Shown piece by piece: positions 1,295-6,375 of a DNA stretch of 64,000 nucleotides (position 1 is its first letter; every line of letters begins with the position of its first letter). The notes below the pieces were generated by a model, which did no database searches, was not told the origin of the DNA, and was given only the letters and a program-made list of their open reading frames with translations. Origin of the DNA: Hoeflea prorocentri (GTDB lineage Bacteria > Pseudomonadota > Alphaproteobacteria > Rhizobiales > Rhizobiaceae); NCBI RefSeq assembly GCF_027944115.1, contig NZ_JAPJZI010000001.1, positions 2,232,001 through 2,296,000 on the forward strand, given 5' to 3'. A program made the position numbers and the translations under genes.

Positions 1295-1411
1295 GCCGAA
1301 GAATTACCATGGAGACAAAAACAAGTCCGCCGATTTTCGGGCGTTTATGTTGAAATTTCCACTTGCGCCACCTGCCGGCAAAGCCTATTGAAATCTGGCC
1401 TTTTGGCAGGT

Positions 1412-1488
<77 letters not shown>

Positions 1489-1806
1489 TTTCTTTAAAAA
1501 CTTCCTGTTCCAACATCCCGTTTACAAACCCCACACAGTGCTGTGCACCCGTTTGGGGCGACCGGGCAACAGCTTGCGCTGTTGAACAACCCTTTTGCAT
1601 TTTCCACTGGAAAACAAACTCGGCTCAGTCCTGCACCAACGATTCCCAGCACTCATTCGATCCTGCTTAACGAATGAAACTTCTTACTTAATCTGAATTA
1701 CACATCGAATAATATCTATTTTCGTAGATCAAATTGAAGTATTTGACTCACATTCGGTTTTATTAATAGTATTCGCCAGCAACAAAATGACATTTGAGGC
1801 AAACTG
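1489..1806 (+). other. AT-rich intergenic stretch downstream of tRNA-Pro
   Basis: These 318 bases hold no gene that I can support. Composition drops sharply to AT-rich from about 1670 to 1800, unlike the surrounding DNA. The only structured signals are the weak promoter candidate at 1743-1772 and the ribosome binding site GAGG at 1796-1799 that serves the small peptide gene. Confidence 0.6.
1743..1772 (+). promoter_or_regulatory. candidate promoter for the lasso-like precursor gene
   Basis: TTGACT at 1743-1748 and TAGTAT at 1767-1772 are 18 bp apart in AT-rich DNA, 35 nt before the precursor ATG. The -35 is a 5/6 match and the -10 a 4/6 match to the sigma-70 consensus. AT-rich DNA often gives such matches by chance. 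Confidence 0.35.
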
Positions 1807-1941
1807 ATGAAAAGAACCTATGAAAAGCCAAAGATTCGTACGTGTGGCAGTCTCGATAAGCTAGCCGCCAAGATCATCGCTTCAGGTGTGCCGGTTCGCG
1901 GTGGCGGAGACCTGGAAATCATACCCCGTCCAGAATCTTAA
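1807..1941 (+). CDS. lasso-type RiPP leader-containing small peptide (orphan precursor)
   Basis: A 44-codon ORF with a good Shine-Dalgarno (GAGG, 7 nt before the ATG). The leader has the pattern YEKPKIRTCGSLDKL (residues 5-19), matching the Y-x2-P-x-(L/I)-x3-G-x-L leader motif that PqqD-like B1 proteins bind in lasso peptide systems. If cleavage falls after Ser26, the core would start GVPVRGGGD, so Gly1 and Asp9 are placed for a nine-residue macrolactam, with an LEIIPRPES tail. The usual Thr at -2 is Ala here. No B or C maturation enzyme lies in the window. It converges on the glycosyltransferase gene (14-nt gap). Existence of the gene is likely; maturation to a lasso is inference. Confidence 0.62.
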   Translation: MKRTYEKPKIRTCGSLDKLAAKIIASGVPVRGGGDLEIIPRPES

Positions 1942-1955
1942 TTCACTCGCGCAAC

Positions 1956-3209
1956 CTAGTGCCGGGCCGGACAGGTCAGAGTGTGTGACGGCTGCTGCTC
2001 GGCATCAGCCGTCAGCGTCATCAGTGATCGTTGCAACAAATCATTGACCTGACCCGCGGCTTCATAAGCATTGCACCGATAAGCCTCGTAGCCCGAAGAG
2101 ATCCGAAGAATTTTTTCTGCGAACTCCCTGTCGCTCTCCGCGTGTTCCGCATTGCCTTGCGCTAACAGGCCCTGCAAGGCAATGCCCTTACTGTGAACGA
2201 TGGGCTTGCCGGCCAAAACCCCATCCACAACAAGACCTGAGCCGGTGTGGCGATAAGACCGCGTGCTGTGCGGAAGAAGCATCATGTCCAATCCGCCAAT
2301 CATTTTGCGGTATTCCTCCGGAGGCAGGCCACAGGGCAGGTATTTAATCGTCACGCCGTGTTCGCGCCGGGCCGCCAGCCAGGATTGCAGTTCGCTTACC
2401 AGCCGGCGTGTCTGTCTGCCGGGCACTGTCTGACACACAAAGTAAAATTTGTGCTTGATGTCGTTTTGCGTGATCAGGGTGCGCAAATGGCTCATGATCG
2501 ACGGGATGCGATAGCTGCCTTTTTCTTCCGCCTGGCGTCCGGGAATGCCGACAGTGAATATGTTTCGGGAACCGGAACTGCTGTTGCCGGAAATCCGACC
2601 GGTCTCACCACCCGGCCGAATGGGGCCGGCAATCAAGAGGCTTGCCTTGACCGGAACCAGAAAATCACGCTCGACATGGGCGGCAAGCTCAGCACTGGAA
2701 GTAAAAACCTCCAGTTTTCCAGCATTGCACAACCGCCGAAGGCTGATCACCGTTTCTGAAGCAAGCGGCGCCAAAGTCTCTTGCGACAGAAGGCGTAGCT
2801 TGAATGTCGGCAGATCGGCCGGACATCCGTTTTCCAGGAAACGGGTGATGGCAGTCACATCGATCGCCTCGGGGGACGGTACAAACACGACATCCGACGG
2901 ATCCGCATCGATCTTCCGCAGGGTCGTTTTGAGAACGTCCATATAGCCTCTCACGTGGGCGGCAATTTTTTCGCCGGTCTTGCGCGGCACATTGCCTGCC
3001 AACAACTTGGAGAGTTGTTCGTCCAGTACGGGCAATGAAGCCCAATGACCTGCATATCCCGCTGGTGCCGGCACGGACACATCGCATTGTGTGAGAAGAT
3101 GCAGATCGACATCAGACAGAGTCTCACCGATCGTCTCGACTTGCGCCTGTTCGTAGCCGTGCATGCGGCCCAGTCGAGGTTCAATCACAAGGAGTCGTCG
3201 TTTCTGCAT
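1956..3209 (-). CDS. glycosyltransferase-like protein
   Basis: A protein of about 417 residues that resembles GT-B glycosyltransferases. The N-terminus is a beta strand followed by a Gly/His-rich turn (LLVIEPRLGRMHGYEQ). The C-terminal half has a strand-helix pattern ending in GSGLVVDGVLAGKPIV and KGIALQGLL, which looks like the nucleotide-sugar region of GT4-type enzymes. No signal peptide or membrane segment is seen. The frame stays open to a TTG at 3245; I chose the ATG at 3209, but neither start has a clear ribosome binding site. It lies alone between AT-rich flanks, beside the orphan RiPP precursor. Donor and acceptor are unknown. Confidence 0.6.
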   Translation of the reverse strand: MQKRRLLVIEPRLGRMHGYEQAQVETIGETLSDVDLHLLTQCDVSVPAPAGYAGHWASLPVLDEQLSKLLAGNVPRKTGEKIAAHVRGYMDVLKTTLRKIDADPSDVVFVPSPEAIDVTAITRFLENGCPADLPTFKLRLLSQETLAPLASETVISLRRLCNAGKLEVFTSSAELAAHVERDFLVPVKASLLIAGPIRPGGETGRISGNSSSGSRNIFTVGIPGRQAEEKGSYRIPSIMSHLRTLITQNDIKHKFYFVCQTVPGRQTRRLVSELQSWLAARREHGVTIKYLPCGLPPEEYRKMIGGLDMMLLPHSTRSYRHTGSGLVVDGVLAGKPIVHSKGIALQGLLAQGNAEHAESDREFAEKILRISSGYEAYRCNAYEAAGQVNDLLQRSLMTLTADAEQQPSHTLTCPARH

Positions 3210-3311
3210 CGGTGTAGTAGTATTCACCCACCGCGTATAATTCAACTATGCATTATGTATATTTTTTCAATAATATTTTATTTTTTAATGGGTTCTGTTT
3301 GTGTAATTACA

Positions 3312-3962
3312 CTATCCCTCCCCTAAATCAGAAAGATCAACAACCGACAGCGCCCACCGACGCCCCTTGCCGCGCGCCATTGCCTGATTGATCCACACCA
3401 TGGCGAAGGGTTCAAGCAGGCGCGCCTTGTCAAGCGAACCGGCGTCGAGCGGATCAAAGCCGAGGCCTTCAAGCAAGCCCGCGACCGTCTCCTTCGCCTC
3501 AGTATCGTCTGAAGCCAAAAACATTGCAGGGCGCGCCGGCATGGATCCGGCATACCGCATGACGTCCGCGCCAACCTGATTCAGGGTCTTGACGATGCGT
3601 GCACCTGGCAGCCATGCAGCAACCGTCTCAGCGCCGGAGGTCGACCATCCGCGGTCGAGCCGCAAGGCACCGTCGGCAAATTCCAGCGGGTTCATGCAGT
3701 CAATGATGATTTTGCCGGACAGATCGCCGAGTGTAGCGAGGGCCTCCTTTGCCGCCGTCCACGGAAGAGCAAGAACGACTACATGCGCGTGCTCCGCTGC
3801 CTCGGCCGCTGGGAGGGCTTTTGCGCCGGTTTGGTCCTTCAGGTCACGGAGTTCCTGGGTTTGAAGGTGTCGCGAACCCAGAATGATCTCGTGATGGGTT
3901 GACGCCCAGCCGTGGGCGAGCGCGCTTCCGACGGAGCCTGTCCCGATAATTGCGATGCGCAT
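3312..3962 (-). CDS. NADP-binding F420-oxidoreductase-fold reductase
   Basis: This 216-residue protein opens with a Rossmann motif (IAIIGTGSVGSALAHGW) and follows the pattern of the NADPH-dependent F420 reductase family, including the DCMNPLEF and ARIVKTLNQVGADVM stretches. In bacteria without F420 such proteins are usually NADP-dependent oxidoreductases of unknown substrate. GGAGG lies 5-6 nt before the ATG. It is divergent from the LysR gene across 74 bp, the usual arrangement of a LysR regulator and its target, so it is probably controlled by that protein. Confidence 0.82.
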   Translation of the reverse strand: MRIAIIGTGSVGSALAHGWASTHHEIILGSRHLQTQELRDLKDQTGAKALPAAEAAEHAHVVVLALPWTAAKEALATLGDLSGKIIIDCMNPLEFADGALRLDRGWSTSGAETVAAWLPGARIVKTLNQVGADVMRYAGSMPARPAMFLASDDTEAKETVAGLLEGLGFDPLDAGSLDKARLLEPFAMVWINQAMARGKGRRWALSVVDLSDLGEG

Positions 3963-4025
3963 TCTTGCCTCCTTCTTGCCTTGCGGTCCGTCACGGAATA
4001 CGAAACATAAGAATGCAAAACAAAC

Positions 4026-4036
4026 GAATATGATTC
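4026..4036. promoter_or_regulatory. inverted repeat just before the LysR start
   Basis: GAAT-ATG-ATTC is a perfect 4+3+4 inverted repeat ending at the base before the lysR-family ATG. It lies in the shared 74-bp divergent region. It takes the place where a Shine-Dalgarno should be, since none is visible for this gene. It is short and could be chance. Confidence 0.25.
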
Positions 4037-4981
4037 ATGTCTGAATTCGATGCTGATAAAATCAGACGGCTGGACATGTCGGTGCTGCTGGTCTTCCTGG
4101 CGCTGGTTCGTCACCGCAAGGCGCTGGCGGTCGCCGAAGAACTGGGTCTGACGCCCTCATCCATCAGTCACGCCCAGAAGCGGCTGAGGGATATCCTCGG
4201 CGATCCATTGTTTATTCGACGACCCCATGGCCTTGAGCCAACAGCTTTTGCGCTGGAACTGGAACCCCGCATCAGGGATATCGTCACCCGGCTTCAGGAA
4301 GTTGTCAGCAGCCCGCGCCCCTTTGACCCTAAGTCAGCGACAGGTACCGTGCGTATCAGTGCGTTCGACGGCGAGATCGCGGCCCACATTCCGAAGCTGC
4401 TTGCTCAGATGGAGAATTCGGCACCGGCGCTAAAGCTCATCGTCAGACCATTTGGCCGAAAAGACGCTCTCAGAGCGCTTGAACATGATGAAACGGATCT
4501 TGCACTCGGCTTCTTCTGGGACTTGCCTGCCCGCTTTATGGCAACATCACTCTACGAGGAAGGCTACCGCGTTGTCATGCGGCGTAATCATCCATTGGCG
4601 AACGAAGACGTCCTCGGGCCCGAAGCTTTTGCATCGACCGGGCATGCCGTGGTTTCACCTGCCGGCGATCTTCGCGGCATTGTCGATGACAGTCTGGATC
4701 AGATGGGTTTGAGGCGGATGGTCCGAGTGGCGCTGCCGCACTTCCTGCCGGCCCTTGCAACCGTATCGCAAAGCGACCTTATTGCAACGCTGCCGTCAAG
4801 AATTGTCGAAGATTACGCGGATACATTCGGCCTTTACCACTGTCGTCCGCCCGTCGAGTTACGGTCCTTTCCGGTCAGCCTTGTCCGCCACGTCAAAAAC
4901 CAGCGCAACGCCATGCACAACTGGGTTGCCGACGCGCTGGTCGGCATTGCCCGTGCCGAACAGCGGTCAGCGGTCAACTAG
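4037..4981 (+). CDS. LysR-family transcriptional regulator
   Basis: A typical 314-residue LysR protein. A winged helix-turn-helix occupies about residues 10-70 (VAEELGLTPSSISHAQKRL), followed by a substrate-binding domain of two alpha/beta lobes (about 95-300). The line LDMSVLLVFLALVRHRK resembles the NodD/LinR-type subgroup. It is divergent from the NADP-binding reductase and its stop overlaps the stop of the convergent downstream gene by 4 nt. The effector cannot be predicted. There is no clear ribosome binding site before the ATG. Confidence 0.93.
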   Translation: MSEFDADKIRRLDMSVLLVFLALVRHRKALAVAEELGLTPSSISHAQKRLRDILGDPLFIRRPHGLEPTAFALELEPRIRDIVTRLQEVVSSPRPFDPKSATGTVRISAFDGEIAAHIPKLLAQMENSAPALKLIVRPFGRKDALRALEHDETDLALGFFWDLPARFMATSLYEEGYRVVMRRNHPLANEDVLGPEAFASTGHAVVSPAGDLRGIVDDSLDQMGLRRMVRVALPHFLPALATVSQSDLIATLPSRIVEDYADTFGLYHCRPPVELRSFPVSLVRHVKNQRNAMHNWVADALVGIARAEQRSAVN

Positions 4982-5574
4982 TCCAGATCGACAAACAACG
5001 CCACGTCTTTGGCTTCTGCCGGAATCGAACCGGAATTGACGTTGACGGTGAATGTCATGCCCTCCCCGTTGAGCGTTGCCGTCAGCAGTTCGACGACCAG
5101 AGGCTCCTCGGTTTCAAGACCTGCAACGGCAATTGCCGCATTGGGTGGATCGGACTTAAACGACCCCTCCCCGCTGTCGCTCCACATCTCGACGAACACG
5201 TCGTGCGGGACATGCCCGGCTTCGCGGACAGGCCGGTCGGAAAAATAAAATGTCGACGGTGCGAGGTTCGTCAGCGACAGGGTTCCGTCCTTGAACTCAA
5301 GCGCTCCTGCCTGCTGCACGTAAAGATAGGACGGAACAATACCGACTTCGCGCGGCGGAACCTTGTCGCCTTTCAGCGCATCACCGGTCTGGCGAACGCC
5401 TTTCTCGATTGCTTCGCCGGTCTTGTCGACACCCTTGCCGATGGCTTCACCGGTTTCCTGGAGCGCCTTTCCGATGCCTTTGACGATCTGGGCCTGTGCC
5501 ACCTGGCCTGTCGGCGCGCCTGCCAGCACCACAAGCAGCATCAGGCAGAGCGGAAACAATAATCGATTGGTCAT
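4978..5574 (-). CDS. exported hypothetical protein with tandem 11-residue repeats
   Basis: The 198-residue product starts with a Sec signal peptide (hydrophobic residues 4-20, likely cleavage after the AQA near 28). Residues 36-68 are three consecutive 11-mers of the type K-x-(L/V)-x2-TG-(E/D)-A-(I/L)-x, which form an amphipathic helix like LEA or apolipoprotein repeats. The rest is predicted beta-rich and ends LFVDLD. GGGGGA precedes the ATG. I recognise no family. The repeats suggest contact with membrane or cell wall in the periplasm, but this is inference. Confidence 0.72.
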   Translation of the reverse strand: MTNRLLFPLCLMLLVVLAGAPTGQVAQAQIVKGIGKALQETGEAIGKGVDKTGEAIEKGVRQTGDALKGDKVPPREVGIVPSYLYVQQAGALEFKDGTLSLTNLAPSTFYFSDRPVREAGHVPHDVFVEMWSDSGEGSFKSDPPNAAIAVAGLETEEPLVVELLTATLNGEGMTFTVNVNSGSIPAEAKDVALFVDLD

Positions 5575-5671
5575 AAGACATCCCCCACAAGGTTACAGAA
5601 ACACTCGCCCGCCGGTCGTCGATGTAATCACACATGACGCCCGGACAAAACACCAGAAACCGGCGGACCGC

Positions 5672-5692
5672 GTGATATTTTTGCCATATCAC
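5672..5692. promoter_or_regulatory. inverted repeat GTGATAT-N7-ATATCAC
   Basis: A perfect 7-bp inverted repeat with a 7-bp spacer in the divergent region between the exported repeat protein and the SLT-like lipoprotein. The size fits a dimeric repressor site or a short hairpin. No assigned regulator. Confidence 0.35.
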
Positions 5693-5753
5693 CGGCAAAT
5701 GACAGCACATTGGCAAGCCAGAACGCAAAACGTCACATTTCAAACACAAATAC

Positions 5754-5768
5754 CCATTTGGCAAATGG
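5754..5768. promoter_or_regulatory. palindrome CCATTTG-G-CAAATGG
   Basis: A perfect 15-bp palindrome about one central base, 61 bp before the SLT-like lipoprotein ATG. It is in a good position for an operator or activator site of that gene. The half-site GCAAATG also occurs at 5695-5701. Confidence 0.35.
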
Positions 5769-5829
5769 TTGAGAGGCGCGCGCAGTATCATTGCCCGCCA
5801 GTTGCATGAGTTAAAACCAGATCAAAGAC

Positions 5830-6375
5830 ATGAAATTAACCACACTCGGCATTTTTGCCGCCGCCATTTTCCTTGCCGGTTGCTCGGCTACCGATGCAAG
5901 CGGAGAAAAGCAGAAGGCCTATCAGATCGGCGCTCACAAGAGCGGCACCGTCCGCTTTGAAAAGCTCTCCGGTTATAACAGCGCGCAGACGCGGATCGCC
6001 AACAAGATTACCGCCCGTTTTGCAGCAGCCGGCTATGGCGAACCCCAGCAGATCGCCGCCGTCTCCGTCGCCATTCGCGAGTCTACGCTCAATCCGAAGG
6101 CTCATAACCGCGGCTGCAATTGCTACGGTCTGTTCCAGATGAACAAGAGCGCCGGGCTCGGCCGCGGCCACTCCGTCTCCAATCTGACCAAGGCCGACTA
6201 CAATATCTCGCTCATTCTCGAAGAAGCCGAACGGTTCCCGAGTTTCGGTGCGGCAAAAACGGTGGACCAGGCGATCAACGCCTTTGTGCGCAATGTGACC
6301 CGGCCGGCCAACAAACCAGGTGTCGTAAAGGCCACAATCCGCACCGCGCGCAAAGTGGAAAAGTCGGCGGACTGA
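5830..6375 (+). CDS. lipoprotein with lysozyme-like/lytic transglycosylase-type domain
   Basis: A 181-residue protein with a lipobox (FLAGC, Cys18) so it should be lipid-anchored. Residues about 50-150 look like an SLT/lysozyme fold: AVSVAIRESTLNPKAHN gives the probable catalytic Glu, followed by the YGLFQMN strand typical of transglycosylase SLT domains. This would cut peptidoglycan. The domain is short and contains a CNC pair just before YGLFQ, so activity is not certain. It has its own upstream region with two inverted repeats and no close operon partner. Confidence 0.72.
   Translation: MKLTTLGIFAAAIFLAGCSATDASGEKQKAYQIGAHKSGTVRFEKLSGYNSAQTRIANKITARFAAAGYGEPQQIAAVSVAIRESTLNPKAHNRGCNCYGLFQMNKSAGLGRGHSVSNLTKADYNISLILEEAERFPSFGAAKTVDQAINAFVRNVTRPANKPGVVKATIRTARKVEKSAD

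Follow-up and report, generated by a model that had tools for sequence, protein, structure and literature searches.

Dispersed RiPP precursors with a lasso-type leader and their likely remote maturation locus in Hoeflea prorocentri

The ORF at positions 1807-1941 of the DNA analysed here is, on sequence evidence, a genuine RiPP precursor gene and not a chance ORF, because its peptide came first (E 1.1e-7) when a family profile built without it was run on all 969 window ORFs of at least 20 aa. The window is a 64,000-nt stretch of Hoeflea prorocentri (GCF_027944115.1, NZ_JAPJZI010000001.1, 2,232,001-2,296,000, forward strand). We consider it probable that this gene is one of nine dispersed precursors that feed a single remote enzyme locus, and that the product, whose chemistry we infer, is a peptide that stays linear, is phosphorylated and may also be acylated.

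The precursor gene, its family and its surroundings

The 44-residue peptide encoded at 1807-1941 is MKRTYEKPKIRTCGSLDKLAAKIIASGVPVRGGGDLEIIPRPES. In agreement with the original prediction, the frame has a Shine-Dalgarno sequence (core GAGG, ending 7 bases upstream of the start codon), and its leader shows a lasso-type pattern (YEKPKI...G-S-L, motif YxxPx[L/V/I]). Little weight is given to a promoter-like element upstream, because two overlapping sites were found where shuffles yield 0.7 ± 0.8. When all H. prorocentri members were left out of the profile, the peptide again ranked first (E 2.2e-5; next ORF 0.012), and the reversed window ORFs reached no better than E 1.1. None of the curated precursor models recognizes the peptide above cut-off; NCBIfam lasso_leader_L3 (NF033521) gave no match to it at E ≤ 10, and matched 3/34 members of the precursor family at E ≤ 0.01. 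A chance ORF could appeal to this result and to the shortness of the frame, but the leave-one-out rank and the reversed ORFs make it hardly credible. It had also been proposed that an absence of B and C genes from the genome, with no conservation of the ORF, would mark a chance ORF; a B1/B2 pair and a precursor family do exist.

As a query, the peptide returned weak paralogues in the H. prorocentri genome that aligned from residue 1; its weak matches in other families, mostly internal to long frames, were discounted as chance. Profile A1 (15 members, from H. prorocentri, i.e. G000, and from G001 and G007) gave nine strong precursor matches at five loci in H. prorocentri (Table 1). One of these, at 1980.7 kb, has 30 residues and lacks the SG motif described below. 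The family consensus is MKKxYxKPxxxKRxxLxxxTA.

Table 1. Features of the precursor locus, the enzyme locus and the precursor set of H. prorocentri. Positions are those of the window unless a locus (L060) or C1 is named.
Feature	Position	Strand	Basis
tRNA-Pro(GGG), upstream border of precursor islet	1412..1488	+	ARAGORN on L006 (1106-1182, offset 306)
Islet from tRNA-Pro to next gene, holds precursor	1489..1955	.	comparison with G007
Promoter-like TTGACT-N16/18-(AATAGT or TAGTAT)	1743..1772	+	pattern scan versus shuffles
Shine-Dalgarno core	1796..1799	+	sequence
Precursor peptide gene, 44 aa, ATG start	1807..1941	+	ORF listing, family profile, leave-one-out rank
Predicted leader (residues 1-21, MKRTYEKPKIRTCGSLDKLAA) with the RRE-binding motif Y5-x2-P8-x-I10	1807..1869	+	Y(-17) spacing, family register
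Predicted core, residues 22-44, KIIASGVPVRGGGDLEIIPRPES	1870..1938	+	family register; predicted cut after Ala21
Ser26-Gly27, conserved core motif, proposed phosphorylation site	1882..1887	+	SG counts versus shuffles
Convergent gene without a Pfam match, resembling a glycosyltransferase by eye	1956..3209	-	sequence, comparison with G007
B1 (PqqD, RRE)	L060 9376-9666	+	PF05402, 52.2 bits
B2 (lasso leader peptidase)	L060 9653-10096	+	PF13471, 46 bits; NF033537
HprK-like kinase	L060 10102-11091	+	profile and structure-sequence matches
NTP_transf_5	L060 11111-12181	-	homology
ACP	L060 12123-12365	-	weak family match (E 0.0088)
GNAT	L060 12362-12949	-	homology
AMP-ligase	L060 12946-14382	-	homology, solved relatives
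H. prorocentri precursors	C1: 545.6; 1551.9, 1552.4; 1980.7, 1980.9; 2004.7/2004.9/2005.3; 2233.8 kb (window copy)		A1 profile

The precursor lies between a tRNA-Pro and a convergent gene. The best matches to the tRNA-Pro stretch (window 1330-1500) have 81-99% identity in all seven genus relatives. No precursor was found at this locus in the seven fetched relatives, of which only five are informative because the loci of two (L205, L209) end within ~100 bases of the tRNA. Among the genus relatives' loci the downstream neighbour is shared by G007 only, and G007 has no precursor there. Because the distance from the tRNA to the aligned end of this neighbour is about 98 bases in G007 and about 543 in H. 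prorocentri, the comparison of sequences puts the precursor on a small AT-rich islet (GC 41.8% in its upstream part, 1491-1806, versus 58.1% for the whole window) that was either gained in H. prorocentri or lost in G007. The neighbour itself is probably unrelated to the precursor, since G007 carries the one without the other.

Several precursors lie near phage genes. In H. prorocentri, an endolysin gene stands 95 bases away from the precursors at 1980 kb, and a tail-protein gene 3.3 kb away (L038). A head-tail adaptor gene is about 2.1 kb from the precursors of G007 (L040) and about 1.3 kb from those of G006 (L124); in G001 the distance from the precursors to a tail fibre gene (L041) is about 2.5 kb. 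The pattern MKKxYEKP was present in 18 IMG/VR stretches; five of these (L225, L228, L231, L233 and L239) encode precursor-like peptides by the 34-row profile A5 (E ≤ 5.3e-9), and the remaining pattern matches reached A5 E 4e-4 or worse, even though the pattern imposes eight identical residues on all of them. On the 48.6-kb contig L233 the precursor is located between tail fibre and endolysin genes; in L225, where it stands beside tRNA-Ser, and L239 it is at a contig end, and host flank is likely. The combined viral pattern search gave no match, plasmid searches gave one match at E 10 and otherwise none, and matches in phage records (E 2 and 9) were ignored.

Some related observations were made along the way. 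Three IMG/VR stretches (L226, L227, L237) encode MKKKYEKP... peptides ending in C-x-Q-C-S-x-C-H-G-C-[RK], likely precursors of a different RiPP type. In G005, two frames (L125 7374-7991 and 8105-8533, both +) carry a lasso-type leader (TYEKPTVV...LLAVTA in the second) in frame with a phage structural/S74 chaperone-of-endosialidase domain, which amounts to a fusion of leader and tail-type protein. In three genus genomes the precursor groups have beside them a gene that by eye is patatin-like (L039 4402-5565, L040 6584-7750, L124 5661-6962).

Core register and the question of a lasso ring

The YxxPxL motif of lasso precursors spans positions -17 to -12 (PMC10368454), which sets core residue 1 at Y+17, i.e. 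at Lys22, and splits the 1807-1941 peptide into ...KLAA / KIIASGVPVRGGGDLEIIPRPES. Register and core statistics were collected from 61 precursors (38 + 23 from two sets, 60 unique cores), with Y set by hand in five rows. Weak matches at E 0.49 or above were set aside as chance on visual inspection; the one exception, L117_8516 (E 1.2), is a canonical lasso precursor and served as a control. Motif and position led us to retain manually L115_7260 (E 0.29) and a further two weak matches (E 0.0011, 0.002). Y+15 is Thr in 42/61 precursors and Ala in 11/61, and Y+16 is Ala in 53/61, counts that are partly selected, as are those of the SG motif, because the search profile itself contains TA and SG columns. 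By its position, the Thr at Y+15 is the expected T(-2) of lasso-type precursors; the 1807-1941 peptide has Ala there instead of the family-typical Thr. This Ala counts against cleavage here, since B2 no longer cut BsfA once its Ile at -2 was replaced by Ala, although the Bsf system is tuned to Ile (PMC10368454). The control L117_8516 shows the same Y+17 register with Thr at Y+15, followed by GGGGNTATD, that is Gly1-Asp9.

An SG motif is present in 39 of the 60 unique cores and absent from 21, as compared with a mean of 10.3 (sd 2.7) and a maximum of 20 in 2000 shuffles; all 60 contain Ser or Thr, and 55 contain Ser. HprK homologues act on Ser of linear precursors (PMC8498205, PMC10368454, PMC13381572): the kinase modifies the C-terminal Ser in paeninodin (PMC8498205), and an HprK-type kinase phosphorylates core Ser3 in BsfA (PMC10368454) and in LppA (PMC13381572). 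Because the cores share the SG motif, Ser26 is the likely kinase target, with the C-terminal Ser44 as a second candidate in the 1807-1941 peptide; just 5/61 cores end in Ser.

The original prediction had taken Gly27 as core residue 1 and drawn a Gly1-Asp9 ring to Asp35. This lasso reading fails because the register cuts after Ala21, not before Gly27, and because no cyclase was found; in addition, the ring residues are not conserved. Asp or Glu occurs at 7-9 from the SG Gly in 13/39 SG cores, the 1807-1941 core included, and in the Y+17 register 7/60 cores are ring-capable.

Lasso cyclases were sought with NF033535 (cut-off 525 bits) alongside an asparagine synthase model (cut-off 267.1 bits). 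No H. prorocentri protein passed 525 bits, the best scoring 261.6. The five PF00733 matches of this genome are two asparagine synthetases, MnmA, ArgG and NadE; the synthetases (C1:2.83 Mb and C2:88 kb) score 516.8 and 387.9 bits with the asparagine synthase model, and 261.6 and 174.9 bits with NF033535. There was no Asn_synthase-type match within 20 kb around B1/B2. Three proteins encoded next to other B2 genes served for comparison: those at L117 (788.9) and L121 (655.4) pass NF033535 and that at L120 (113.2) fails; since this model misses an Asn_synthase-domain protein beside the L120 B2, absence by NF033535 alone is not proof. NF033535 was run on 15 genomes, and its cut-off was exceeded in G104 and G097 only. 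An asparagine synthetase lies within the enzyme locus in 1/12 genomes with the full seven-gene set described below, the Roseovarius locus L146 (352.7 bits against the 267.1 cut-off; NF033535 197.4 of 525); there it stands with a Mur-ligase-like gene (by eye; 3133-6330, -), divergent from B1.

Could one of the two asparagine synthetases close a Gly27-Asp35 ring in trans, so that the peptide is a true lasso precursor after all? Leader and B2 are of the lasso type, Gly27 and Asp35 are at lasso spacing, and two candidate proteins exist; yet both pass the asparagine synthase model and fail NF033535. Moreover, G003 and G004 hold proteins in the same NF033535 score range with no PF13471 match at E ≤ 1e-3, and G001, which has the full seven-gene set, shows no NF033535 match at E ≤ 1e-40. 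Together with the unconserved ring residues and a leader that would run five residues beyond the Y(-17) register, this makes a lasso closed in trans very improbable.

The remote enzyme locus

The window itself holds no B or C gene (no match to PF00733 at E ≤ 0.001, or to PF13471 and PF05402 at E ≤ 10), as had been noted when the precursor was called an orphan with its enzymes elsewhere. The whole-genome search for B1, B2 and C proteins bore this out for B1 and B2, found side by side (PF05402 and PF13471) at C1:3775.4-3776.1 kb (G000:C1:3775376-3776096), and not for the cyclase, as no protein reached the NF033535 cut-off.

B2 is above the cut-off of NCBI lasso_biosyn_B2 (NF033537; 52.4 versus 33 bits), and its Cys83 and His120 are invariant in 12 aligned B2 proteins, the H. 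prorocentri one included. The kinase has no Pfam match, and HprK_rel_A aligns to part of it with a score of 33.1, short of the cut-off of 200; its P-loop matches solved HPr kinases (E 3.6e-4), and GKTTT and DD are invariant in the eight sequences aligned. The WDS serine is present in 7/7 ACPs examined, and the best solved relatives of the AMP-ligase are oxalate-CoA ligases. By eye, no SipW-like signal peptidase was seen among the L060 ORFs, where B2 occupies the peptidase place, and no exporter gene beside the enzymes. Two further PqqD proteins of H. prorocentri exceed the cut-off (C2:61.9 kb, C1:1.203 Mb); as B1 candidates they were rejected, B2 not being adjacent and the single over-cut-off PF13471 lying at C1:3.776 Mb. 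Around the second of them (L063 4190-8062) are glycosyltransferase-like genes and an ORF that may be HprK-like, and L063 is perhaps a second modification locus.

All nine H. prorocentri precursors are > 1.3 Mb from the L060 enzymes, even if the contig is circular. L060 is the likely maturation locus for them. Precursors were detected at E ≤ 1e-3 in 10/151 genomes and PF13471 in 15/151 (13 above the curated cut-off), and all ten precursor genomes are among these 15 (hypergeometric 2.4e-12; 7/7 and 3e-9 minus the three profile-source genomes). Counted by genus, co-occurrence is 5/5 genera versus 10/140 (6e-7), and 4/4 minus the own genus (8e-6). At E ≤ 1e-3, precursor and PF13471 are both missing from G003 and G004, which belong to the same genus. 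In a class sample of 385 evenly drawn genomes, where 33 have PF13471, A5 at E ≤ 1e-3 found H. prorocentri plus G265, a weak precursor-like case (E 5.2e-4) that has no PF13471 match and counts against co-occurrence.

A full set of the seven genes (B1, B2, kinase, NTP_transf_5, AMP-ligase, ACP, GNAT) was found in 12 different alphaproteobacterial genomes: H. prorocentri, G001, G002, G005, G006, G007, G032, G132 and those of loci L146, L147, L148 and L150. A scan of named genomes returned 12 loci, of which L141-L145 and L149 are the same contigs as G006, G007, G001, G005, G002 and G032 and were counted once, and L151 and L152 hold the AMP-ligase/GNAT/ACP part only. Named carriers include Hoeflea poritis, a Nitratireductor sp. 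and a Roseovarius; MAGs of Rhizobiaceae, Xanthobacteraceae and Hyphomicrobiaceae are carriers too. Precursors lie within the enzyme locus in 9/12 genomes, with tandem arrays of ten in L148 (6541-8434, -) and nine in L147 (6841-8335, -), which has a tenth about 5 kb away; in the 19-20 kb around the enzymes of H. prorocentri, G006 and G007 there was none at E ≤ 0.1. Core sequences hardly differ within L147 (G[AT]NFSGKK[AG]K) and are diverse in L148.

In the pathway that we propose, B1 would capture the leader through Y5..P8..I10 by its RRE, the HprK-like kinase would phosphorylate Ser26 of the SG motif, and B2 would cleave after Ala21. By homology, NTP_transf_5 may decorate the phosphate, as the homologue in pseudomycoidin puts hexoses on it (PMC8498205). 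The AMP-ligase would load an acid onto the ACP, and the GNAT, again by homology, may transfer it to an amine, the simplest candidate being the N-terminus freed by B2; this acyl step is suggested by the AMP-ligase/ACP/GNAT trio alone. The product would be linear because the locus is without a cyclase.

It is also conceivable, if rather unlikely, that the linear product is only phosphorylated and cleaved, the trio making another molecule or the donor for NTP_transf_5. G069 and G104 have B1-B2-kinase-NTP_transf_5 without the trio (no GNAT match at E ≤ 1e-10; a 25% AMP-binding match near the G104 locus was taken as unrelated), the trio occurs without B1/B2 in L151 and L152, and the GNAT profile matches 11 class-sample genomes lacking PF13471. 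Against this stand the linkage of the trio to B1, B2 and kinase in 12 distinct genomes and the presence of SG in 39/53 precursors from genomes with the trio versus 1/8 without, although SG is scarce despite the trio in L148 (1/10 precursors) and in L146 plus L150 (0/3).

A further alternative concerns the window copy alone, which may be a degenerate relic, a gene copy that came from an ancestral cluster and is matured no more. It lies far from the enzymes and alone at its locus, has Ala for Thr at -2 and is missing from the G007 site. However, its frame is intact and has a Shine-Dalgarno, its leader and SG motif are conserved, eight paralogues exist in the genome and the H. prorocentri B2 retains Cys and His; a relic is improbable.

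If one enzyme locus does serve the dispersed precursors, we may tentatively speak of a decentralized RiPP class, in which one chromosomal factory makes linear phospho-acyl-peptides from many unlinked precursors, some of them prophage cargo. If this were true, phages and small islets would supply interchangeable substrates to host-encoded modifying enzymes. The proposed pathway by itself would show a lasso RRE/peptidase pair, with an ordinary B2, used without a cyclase outside Bacillota, and the acyl-transfer set joined to that pair would point to acylated phosphopeptides. Precursor genes can be wholly unlinked from their enzymes, and cluster-based genome mining would miss them; a set of these precursors lies close to lysis, tail and head genes of phages.

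Comparison with known systems

The system has the YxxPx[L/V/I] leader, B1 RRE and B2 of lasso pathways, and lacks a cyclase and a core residue 1 with Asp/Glu at 7-9. The control lasso loci L117 (G104) and L121 (G097) share the B2-type peptidase and the Y-x2-P-x-L leader and differ by an adjacent cyclase over the NF033535 cut-off. Selidamides are GNAT-acylated RiPPs; the H. prorocentri system differs from such peptides in that genes for an AMP-ligase and an ACP accompany its GNAT gene. In albusnodin, too, a GNAT acts on a RiPP (PMC8498205), as proposed here. Phosphorylated lasso peptides (paeninodin, Bsf) have in common with our system B1, B2, an HprK-like kinase, a nucleotidyltransferase and a YxxPxL leader with residue 1 at Y+17 (PMC10368454, PMC8498205); unlike them, the H. 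prorocentri system has no cyclase and no conserved Gly1 and Asp8/9.

The Linear Polyphosphorylated Peptides (LPP) of Bacillota are likewise cyclase-free (Popov et al. 2026; PMC13381572). As described there, they resemble the H. prorocentri system in the discrete RRE, YxxP leader, HprK-like kinase, NTP transferase, missing macrolactam cyclase and variable cores, and in their clusters of one to three precursors, which we liken to it. The peptidase differs, being the archaeal-type signal peptidase LppS in LPP and a Cys-type lasso B2 here, and LPP has an MsbA-like exporter, of which none was seen by eye beside the H. prorocentri enzymes (PMC13381572). The LPP leader motif YxxPxVLxHQxIxFETxxS (PMC13381572) is found neither in the H. 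prorocentri leader YEKPKIRTCGSLDKLAA nor in the family consensus. The AMP-ligase/ACP/GNAT trio is outside the LPP core as that source describes it, and the words acyl carrier, acetyltransferase and ligase are absent from that paper. Scattered precursors and alphaproteobacterial hosts also set our system apart from LPP. In G104 (C45), a canonical lasso locus with cyclase (L117) and a cyclase-free B1-B2-kinase-NTP_transf_5 locus (L118) are about 24 kb apart, a pairing that resembles the LPP/paeninodin pairing of Bacilli.

Among the matches listed in open-licence PMC, a scope that covers neither subscription journals nor bioRxiv, there was no description of a B2/kinase/AMP-ligase/ACP/GNAT set, and the accessible part of PMC12710340 had nothing on it. 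We infer that the system works like LPP, i.e. linear, phosphorylated and without a cyclase, but with B2 and a different leader. What looks new is the combination of cyclase-free, B2-dependent processing with an acyl-transfer set and with dispersed precursors, several of them near phage genes.
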